Source: Cliona cf. orientalis (taxonomy: Eukaryota > Porifera > Demospongiae > Clionaida > Clionaidae). Taken from it: a DNA stretch of 64,000 nucleotides. The stretch is from NCBI GenBank assembly GCA_963930775.1, contig OZ005703.1, positions 124,001 to 188,000 of the forward strand, written 5' to 3'. The notes under the pieces are model-generated. The model made no database searches and was not told where the DNA came from. It saw only the letters and a program-made list of their open reading frames with translations. Shown here piece by piece: positions 20,794 to 26,609 of this stretch (its first letter is position 1; every line of letters begins with the position of its first letter). A program made the translations under genes and the position numbers.

Positions 20794-23700
20794 ATGGCGC
20801 AGACTTGCTGCGGAACGATCGAGCACAAGATCACGGAGGAGAGAATCAGAGAGATCAGGAAGGCTAGTCACTGCAAGCCTCATGGCATAAATTATTTACC
20901 TAACTATAGCTTCTGTTATGGCTTTCATTCCCCCTGTCCACTCTATGGTTTCTCTCAGCTAGCTGTCAAAACTGACAAACTTTAATCCTGTGAAAGGCGT
21001 CCATCACTTTAATTCTATATCAGTGACTCTTGAGAATTGGTTGTACTATGACTTTGTATAATATATTGTTTGTTGCAGGCTGCTCAGCTGGTGGAGAAGA
21101 TCCGGACCCTGGGAGGGCTCTCCATCAAGGATCGATCCTACCATCTAAGAAGCTACAGCACGTGTTTTGTCGGTAAGCCTCGGCTTAGTATGTCGCATGA
21201 AGTTCCAATGTTTGTTTATGAAAAAAATCTGGATCAGATATCTGTACGATTTTAATATCATCAGCAAGTTTTAATGAGAGGTTCTATACAAGAGGTGCCT
21301 CTTTTATTTGGGTGCTGTGCATGGCTTGGGTCCAGCTTCAATAGCATTACTCTATTCATAACAAGTTTCTGTAAAGCGCTACTAGCACTTAAAAAGAAGT
21401 CTCAAAACAAAATTGTAATCCCAATGATTTTGTTATCACAATGAGTTGTTTTTCCAGCTCAGCGTCATCAACTCTAGCAATGCTGGCCCCTCATCACCTG
21501 CTACACACACACACTCACAATATTGCTGCTGCGTATACATAATATTATAACTATGACGCTGCTAAACTAACACAGACTGTATACATTTCACGTCATTAAC
21601 AGAGACACACACACAGAGCAGAGCGGGTGTGTAAAATACACAAAGCATAGTTGAGTATCAAACGTTTAAGGCGTTTGCCATGCCCTAGCTCTCATGCATG
21701 CAGTAGCTATCATCCTGCCTGTCACTCACTGTGGCATTGTAAACACTTTTCTTAATCCTGTCATATGATATGTATCAAGTGTGATGAATATTGTGCATTC
21801 ATAGTATGGCATAGCTATATAGCTGAATGCTTAGTTGTATACCAACGTGCAGTGGGGCATAACTTCCTGCATTACTGGAATGTCATATGACATACTAAAA
21901 GTTCACCTTGATTAAATATAATATTCATCAGTATAACTATGTATGTGGATGTACTATTGAAATCATTACTGACCAATATCTCAGTTACAAGCTTTTGTGT
22001 ATTTGTGACTTTCACCTAGTACTAGTATTATAGTATATTTGTCAATAGTGGTCCAAATTATTCATATGACATACTAAAAGTTCACCTTGATTAAATATAA
22101 GTATAATTGTGTATGTGGATGTACTATTTAAATCATTACCGACCAATATCTCAGTTACAAGCTTTCATGTATTTGTGACTTTCACCTAGTACTAGTATTA
22201 TAGTATATTTGTCAATAGTGGTCTGAATTATTCTTGATATCCGGTAGTATGTATATTGTGTATCTGTTTATAGATACACACACGATCAAGTTTGTCATAA
22301 TAATATTATTGTTGCTGTGCATATGCACATGGATGGATGGATTGTGAGATTGCATAATAAGAGATAGCTAGGTGTTGTTGTGAGCACGACAGTGTCATGT
22401 GTGTCAGATATTATATCGTTAGTGTAGTACATGTACTTTGTCAATAATTAGATTAGTACATGTATACCGGGTATTGTATATCAGTGTGTGATAGTAGGGC
22501 TGCTATTAGTGTGAGTGTGTGTGTGTGTGTGTGTGTGTGTGTGAGTGAGTGTGTGTGTGTGTGTGAGTGTGAGTGAGTGTGTGTGTGTGTGTGAGTACGT
22601 GATTGTGCACTGGCCTTGCCTGTTATCTTTGATAAACTTCCTCTGGTCGCTCAACGTGTCCGTCCTAGCTTAGTACCATAATCTTATGTTGTGGCTTCAT
22701 CAAGTTAAGTAGGCCATAATTTCACCTGTAGCCATTCCAAGAACACACGGCATCCCAGCACATGCCATATGCCACATGTCAGCGTGCATGTCCCAAACCT
22801 CGGCTATTACAACATTCACTAAGGAAGTTGCCGCTGTGACATTGTTGAAGCTGACTAGTTGGAAGTCCTTTATGGCATGAATTGAATCCTATCTTTACAA
22901 AATCTCTACCTTTCTCACTGATATCCAGTCTAGGGACCACTGATGATCTATTGCACATGTGCAGTGAGCATTATTATTATTATTATTATTATTATTATAC
23001 ATAGCGTCGGAGCTTATTGATTGGTTCGTTTCTAGCGGAGAGGCGGAGTCTCGTGACCAGGCCGTGGAGCTGGGTCAGCTGCTCATCAAGACTGACTACA
23101 TCCACCATGTTGTCGATGAACACAACTTTGAAGACGCTTATCTCTTCTTCAGATTCAGACAGGATGGTGAGCTAATCTTTTCATTAACAGAAATTCCATT
23201 TAGATAATTGGATGCAGCTGGCTACTTGCTGCCATCTATGAATCATGGTTAATTGGTTTTATGCCCACAGTCAGCGTGATAATATTATGCTATAGTACAT
23301 TATCAGATTACTCTATTTTGGCTGTATACCCTCCAAACGCTCAGACAAATAATCGAATTTTTCTTGCTGTCATATTATGATGTTCATGATTTTATTGATT
23401 TTCCAGAGCCCCCTGAGATGTCACTGAAAGGTCCCAGCGTGGCGTACATGAAGGGGCAGTCTGGCACTGTGGCTAGCCTCCTCGCAAAGAAACGTCTCGT
23501 CCTTGGATGGAGCAACTACTATTTCACCTTCTTCCCAAAGAACCGAAGACTCTACCAGTACAGATCAGAACTGGTGAGTTTATAAAATTAATATGGTATT
23601 GGGTTAGTAGCGGTAGAGTAGCTTCATTTCATTTCATTTTTCTTCTTGTGAGTGAGAGGAAAAAATTCTTCTGAGGAGCCCAGTGGGGGACAAGGCTAGA

Positions 23701-26609: not shown

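Follow-up and report, generated by a model that had tools for sequence, protein, structure and literature searches.

GPX4 (PHGPX), the phospholipid-hydroperoxide glutathione peroxidase on which protection against ferroptosis centrally depends, is regarded as a small enzyme without targeting domains. DEP and PH domains, both of which belong to types that frequently attach to membranes, are known from proteins of other kinds: P-Rex is built as DH-PH-DEP-DEP, DEPTOR as DEP-DEP-PDZ, and pleckstrin as PH-DEP-PH. Here we describe a gene of the sponge Cliona cf. orientalis, found in a 64,000-nucleotide stretch of contig OZ005703.1 (positions 124,001 to 188,000; the window, within which positions are counted below), that is predicted to encode a DEP domain, a PH domain, and a GPX4-type selenoenzyme in one chain. 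The window protein resembles GPX4 in its active-site selenocysteine (Sec) codon, its catalytic tetrad, its sequence and fold, and the small size of the gaps between it and primate GPX4 (P0111); it differs in that GPX4 is a single-domain protein, whereas here DEP and PH domains stand in front of the enzyme. By both sequence profile and fold, the DEP domains closest to that of the window protein are those of P-Rex1/P-Rex2 and DEPTOR, but these proteins have another make-up and no peroxidase. Pleckstrin likewise combines DEP with PH, but in a different order and without an enzyme, and its DEP match is much weaker (pleckstrin 2, E = 4.6e-8). Two database entries, P0011 and P0015, have DEP before GPX as the window protein does and are named merely as GPX.

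The fusion gene and its catalytic half

Nine exons on the plus strand, from a start at position 20794 to a TAA stop ending at 26609, join in frame to give a DEP-PH-GPX selenoprotein of 424 residues. The original prediction, made from the sequence of the window, had given the same start, stop, and length for a single gene. The sole in-frame stop before the terminal TAA is a TGA (24926 to 24928), which lies at the Sec position. A domain search of the 424-residue product placed all three predicted domains above the Pfam cut-offs: DEP at residues 36 to 105 (E = 4.5e-22; 78.2 bits, cut-off 32.7), PH at residues 136 to 229 (E = 1.2e-5; 26.2 bits, cut-off 25.1), and GSHPx at residues 252 to 360 (E = 6.7e-41; 138.7 bits, cut-off 27).

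The GPX4-type catalytic half that had been proposed was also borne out. The tetrad is complete (Sec284, Gln320, Trp373, and Asn374), with Gln320, Trp373, and Asn374 invariant in a seven-row alignment, and Arg389, within a KRY motif in exon 9, stands at the place of what we take to be Arg152 of human GPX4. A PDB search with the GPX half matched 2v1m, a Schistosoma GPX (8.5e-58), and human GPX4 (entries starting at 1.5e-57); other classes followed at 5.1e-34 (GPX8), 3.3e-31 (GPX7), and 1.5e-23 (GPX1, in two pieces). Only small gaps separate it from P0111, and it was from these alignments that the dimer/tetramer insert was judged to be absent. Predicted folds were made for relatives P0001 and P0008, standing in for the window protein. 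The coral-type P0008, folded over 342 residues without the start of its DEP domain, gave a pLDDT of 90.7 and a pTM of 0.67 and matched human GPX4 with a TM-score of 0.90 by target at 60% identity. By sequence, then, the GPX half is of the GPX4 type, the other GPX classes being more distant. By analogy with GPX4, whose chemistry is established for the family, it should reduce phospholipid hydroperoxides.

Probable selenocysteine decoding

A hairpin resembling a Sec insertion sequence (SECIS) element was identified at 26778 to 26848 (plus strand), in the 3' untranslated region and beginning 169 nucleotides past the stop codon; the original prediction did not include it. It has a UGAA/CGAU core, an 11-step helix with one U-U pair, AAA at the loop, and a small upper helix. 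Against Rfam, the stretch scored 24.3 bits with SECIS_1 (E = 0.42, calculated over 10 kb with all families), the gathering score being 35. A pattern consisting of UGA, a helix of 10 to 12 steps allowing no more than one mismatch, an AA at the loop, and GA on the far side had one match in the 991 nucleotides after the stop codon; when this stretch was dinucleotide-shuffled 5,000 times, 18 of the shuffles contained a match. Across both strands of the whole window the pattern matched three times, versus 0.6 matches expected from 40 shuffles; the other two matches are weaker, with pairing at 9 of 10 steps and just two G-C pairs. Thus, positions 26778 to 26848 are likely to form a SECIS element. 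A genome-wide search with the Rfam SECIS models gave no match at E = 0.001, and as the controls gave none either, this result is uninformative.

The genome also contains a tRNA-Sec, which scored 76.8 bits and is called by ARAGORN as tRNA-SeC with anticodon TCA. The next best of the 18 matches scored 49.1 bits, and four were over the cut-off; since all 14 control genomes matched too, the top match alone was used. Taken with the UGA at the Sec place and the SECIS-like element, this tRNA suggests that the gene likely encodes a selenoprotein.

Relatives with the same domain order

Relatives were sought with a sequence search (843 proteins, 120 of them listed), a search with residues 1 to 250 (15 proteins), and a profile search (40 proteins). 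At least 29 proteins were found to be fusions with DEP followed by GPX, 25 among the 120 matches listed and 4 more from the profile search. The original prediction named the same order in other early animals as a finding that would support it, and this support was obtained: the organisms identified among the fusions are the sponge Halisarca dujardinii and the corals Stylophora pistillata and Desmophyllum pertusum. The Halisarca protein is the entry "glutathione peroxidase isoform 2" (P0011), with DEP before GPX and no PH call; the Stylophora protein is the entry "Glutathione peroxidase" (P0015), which carries PF00610, PF00169, and PF00255 and thus has its PH domain called. In both entries, the stretch containing the Sec place is missing. 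Overall, a precomputed PH call was present in 20 of the 29 fusions and absent from 9, including that of Halisarca, though the PH stretch aligns.

The search with residues 1 to 250 returned 14 fusions and one double-DEP protein, so that the DEP-PH half, over the lengths covered by the search, is hardly found without GPX. The 40 proteins from the profile search comprised 23 fusions, two DEP-less pieces running into GPX (P0126 and P0127), 14 short pieces (nine with a DEP call), and one double-DEP protein. At the Sec place, 21 of the 29 fusions end exactly before the codon, three read W, two have Cys (P0037 and P0048), and three lack the stretch; a conserved UGA would give calls such as the 21 truncated and three W rows. 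P0002 has its 281 codons within a contig of 1,034 nucleotides, against 4,135 nucleotides from ATG to TGA in the window, which suggests that this contig derives from spliced RNA, and P0037 is a EukProt transcript labeled as a complete open reading frame.

The original prediction knew of no description of a GPX fused to DEP and PH domains. For searchable text this holds: text searches of open PMC papers (titles and the starts of abstracts) found no description of a DEP-PH-GPX protein, and the whole word DEP is absent from the main text of three surveys of GPX or selenoproteins (PMC9925728, PMC8614756, and PMC3473315). Proteins of this kind nevertheless sit unremarked in databases, as the Stylophora entry illustrates. 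An excerpt of a study of Halisarca ferritin names "GPX-like 2" as one of the ferroptosis factors that were more highly expressed in summer (PMC8395497); from the name "isoform 2," we infer that this may be the DEP-GPX entry P0011. DEP-PH-GPX4 is a real, old, and apparently undescribed architecture of GPX4.

GPX domains were also found in another combination. Many lepidopteran proteins, most of them named juvenile hormone epoxide hydrolase, have a GPX domain beside PF00561/PF06441 (for example, P0050, P0056, P0057, and P0059, with GPX at the C terminus in P0050), and this epoxide hydrolase-type fusion recurs across moths, butterflies, and further contigs.

Trees of the two halves

In a tree of the DEP-PH half, the window protein grouped with P0001 and P0002 (100/100) within a group of 18 sequences that holds Halisarca (97/99), a placement in keeping with a sponge origin of the window. 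A coral group of four was separate (99/97), and eight other sequences (P0037, P0041, P0047, P0048, and P0122 to P0125) stood apart from both groups (100/100). The Halisarca-containing and coral groups are here labeled animal type, the organism being identified for three of their relatives.

Six fusions were included in trees of the GPX half: the window protein, P0008, P0037, P0041, P0047, and P0048, of which P0008, P0041, and P0047 lack the DEP start and P0048 lacks the GPX end. With all 101 rows kept, the six formed one clade together with P0043 (97/87, with a long-branch warning), a plain GPX of Achlya hypogyna that is in two pieces and on a long branch. In a tree of 65 rows, the six fusions alone formed one clade (100/88). 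The 36 rows left out were 32 from Lepidoptera and four with long branches or broken sequences (P0043, P0045, P0100, and P0103); a single origin without exception therefore depends on our choice to omit P0043. In this 65-row tree, the plain proteins nearest to the fusions were P0046 and P0099, both single-domain, GPX4-like proteins with long N termini and W at the Sec place.

The simplest reading of these trees is one origin of the fusion before sponges and corals parted. None of the listed matches with organism names was a bilaterian fusion, which fits a loss in that lineage without proving it.

Properties of the DEP and PH domains

By sequence profile, the DEP domain is nearer to those of P-Rex1, DEPTOR, and EPAC than to those of RGS7 or pleckstrin 2. 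A membrane or a partner of the Rac/mTOR type is for this reason a better guess than an RGS-type form of the originally suggested tie to G-protein signals. The DEP domain of EPAC binds phosphatidic acid. The same lipid is bound by the DEP tandem of DEPTOR, according to an excerpt of PMC8439649.

For the PH region, a match to the PH fold was obtained; the rows from VIA-align cover mostly residues 124 to 236 (PH) and fewer cover DEP, and the absence of other folds among them is uninformative. PH domains that bind phosphoinositides usually have a basic K-x-R motif at the start of strand 2. The window protein has S-N-Y there, and at places set by the alignment, the R place is basic in none of the 21 animal-type rows and in seven of the eight other rows, with both places basic in none of the 29. 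The proposed link to phosphoinositide signals is thereby weakened for the animal-type rows, and could still apply to the other eight. Because the usual arginine is missing, membrane binding would rest on the DEP domain or on another surface of the PH domain. Across a 19-row alignment, His88, Phe102, Phe105, Asp108, and Trp224 of the DEP-PH part are invariant.

GPX and DEP-PH genes elsewhere in the genome

Two queries, Pfam GSHPx and P0111 (the identity of which was checked), each matched three places in the 216.8-Mb genome: two exons of the fusion gene and C15:7523274. The enzyme encoded at the latter has Cys (VASECGYT) and a hydrophobic N terminus, and its closest PDB match is human GPX7 (1.4e-44), followed by GPX8. 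It is the sole other GPX that these two queries found, and a plain GPX4 elsewhere in the genome was rejected within the reach of these searches. The fusion is thus the only GPX4-type enzyme found in the 216.8 Mb, where an intron-broken or unassembled copy could escape such a search. Excerpts of two surveys report that GPX7 is the commonest GPX in sponges and that demosponges have GPX4-like genes (PMC9925728), and that one Gpx selenoprotein was counted in Amphimedon (PMC3473315); a single GPX4-type gene beside a GPX7-like gene is in line with both. Further copies of the DEP-PH part were rejected, as the 12 genome matches with P0001 comprised six to this gene and six weaker ones in the DEP range only.

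Exon structure and neighboring features

Exon 1 (20794 to 20862) carries the start codon and residues 1 to 23. The DEP domain begins in exon 2 (21079 to 21172; residues 24 to 55) and is completed in exon 3 (23005 to 23166; residues 55 to 109), and the PH domain begins in exon 4 (23407 to 23573; residues 109 to 164) and continues through exon 5 (24212 to 24347; residues 165 to 210). Exon 6 (24609 to 24792; residues 210 to 271) bridges the domains: it encodes the C-terminal PH helix, which includes Trp224, as well as the opening 20 residues of the GPX match (from residue 252 onward). The Sec region lies in exon 7 (24889 to 25036; residues 271 to 320), the last codon of which is that of Gln320; Trp373 and Asn374 are in exon 8 (26051 to 26221; residues 321 to 377), and exon 9 (26466 to 26609) encodes residues 378 to 424, including Arg389, and the TAA stop.

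Seven of the eight introns are GT-AG and one, after exon 1, is GC-AG (aag followed by gctagt). Support for this junction comes from P0001 and P0002: both continue straight through it, and a 15-residue stretch across it is identical in both. Exon 6 has a NAGNAG acceptor, not remarked on previously, that would give either KGIC or KAGIC; at the same place P0002 reads KGIC and P0001 reads KAGIS. The open frame of exon 6 extends back to a stop before 24503 without any Met and therefore offers the GPX part no separate start codon.

Intron 7, directly after the Sec exon, is mostly minisatellite (25064 to 25877, units of 55 and 73 bases), and intron 8 is mainly a CT repeat of 203 bases (26258 to 26460) reaching the last acceptor. 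Upstream of the gene, exons of a protein kinase are present on the minus strand at 18113 to 19491 (Pkinase, E = 5.5e-21 for 18781 to 19101 and 2.8e-18 for 18113 to 18403). Downstream, long open frames of 401 and 260 amino acids at 27134 to 28339 and 28425 to 29207 (minus strand) are convergent with the GPX gene and gave no Pfam match at 0.01.

Function and significance of the fusion

We consider it probable that the gene encodes a single-chain GPX4-type selenoenzyme on an N-terminal DEP-PH module, held at a membrane or a membrane-bound partner. Sec284, with Gln320, Trp373, and Asn374, would reduce phospholipid hydroperoxides with thiol, as GPX4 does. We infer that the DEP domain, of the P-Rex/DEPTOR/EPAC kind, and the PH domain would anchor the enzyme to anionic membranes or to such a partner, and that repair would thereby be placed where peroxides form.

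Several points weigh against this account. The gene structure is a prediction from genomic DNA. The PH score is just over the Pfam cut-off, nine relatives, that of Halisarca included, have no precomputed PH call, and with the K-x-R arginine missing, phosphoinositide binding through the usual PH site appears unlikely. DEP domains bind proteins too, and human GPX4 works on membranes without any such modules. The SECIS-like element scores below the Rfam gathering threshold and its pattern recurs, in weaker form, twice elsewhere in the window, and the plain GPX P0043 falls inside the fusion clade when all 101 rows are kept.

The strongest alternative, which we regard as rather unlikely, is that the DEP-PH part is mainly a protein-protein adaptor, such that the peroxidase acts as a peroxide sensor and hands oxidation to a Rac/mTOR-type partner bound by DEP, with lipid repair being secondary. 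A GPX of yeast, by analogy, relays oxidation to a transcription factor, and such a role would suit a DEP domain closest to those of the signaling proteins P-Rex1 and DEPTOR, an animal-type PH domain without the usual lipid-binding arginine, and the Cys found at the catalytic place in 2 of 29 relatives. However, Sec favors turnover over relay, and 24 of the 29 relatives look like Sec proteins (21 ending at the codon and three reading W). The GPX half is also GPX4-like with a full tetrad, and as it belongs to the only GPX4-type enzyme found in the genome, repair would otherwise proceed without its usual enzyme.

It is less likely still that the N-terminal part is an inert appendage to an ordinary GPX4, serving neither targeting nor signaling. 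One would expect an inert part to decay, but the order of DEP before GPX is kept in a sponge, in corals, and in other eukaryotes, and the five DEP-PH residues listed above are invariant over 19 rows. This has to be set against the loss of the usual phosphoinositide arginine in animal-type rows and a drift in PH sequence, seen in the nine missing PH calls. Improbable is a selenium-dependent switch at the UGA, which lies downstream of a complete DEP-PH part, whereby low selenium would yield a 283-residue DEP-PH protein with a role of its own and sufficient selenium the full peroxidase; the existence of the Cys forms P0037 and P0048 indicates that the full protein is what they keep, and with two exon junctions 3' of the UGA, the stopped mRNA would be expected to decay. 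Two neighboring genes, or a chimera introduced during assembly or annotation, can be rejected as highly improbable even for a gene known from genomic DNA alone, given the bridging exon 6 without an internal Met and the same joint in relatives, including the short contig of P0002 and the EukProt transcript P0037.

A broader history can be offered tentatively, although we regard it as less likely than not. The fusion may be an old eukaryotic module, predating the split of sponges and corals and perhaps animals themselves, that builds lipid-peroxide repair into a membrane-signaling adaptor. Some sponges, this one at least, might rely on it as their only GPX4-type guard against ferroptosis, and bilaterians may have lost the module in favor of a free GPX4. 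Within the animal line, the PH domain would have given up its phosphoinositide site and the DEP domain taken over placement, possibly on membrane rich in phosphatidic acid, tying repair to Rac- or mTOR-type signaling.

The relatives also carry a warning for surveys: gene calling ends at the Sec codon, as it did in 21 of the 29. Should it be true that early-branching animals place GPX4 on membranes by means of DEP and PH domains, the site of lipid-peroxide repair would itself be a controlled step.
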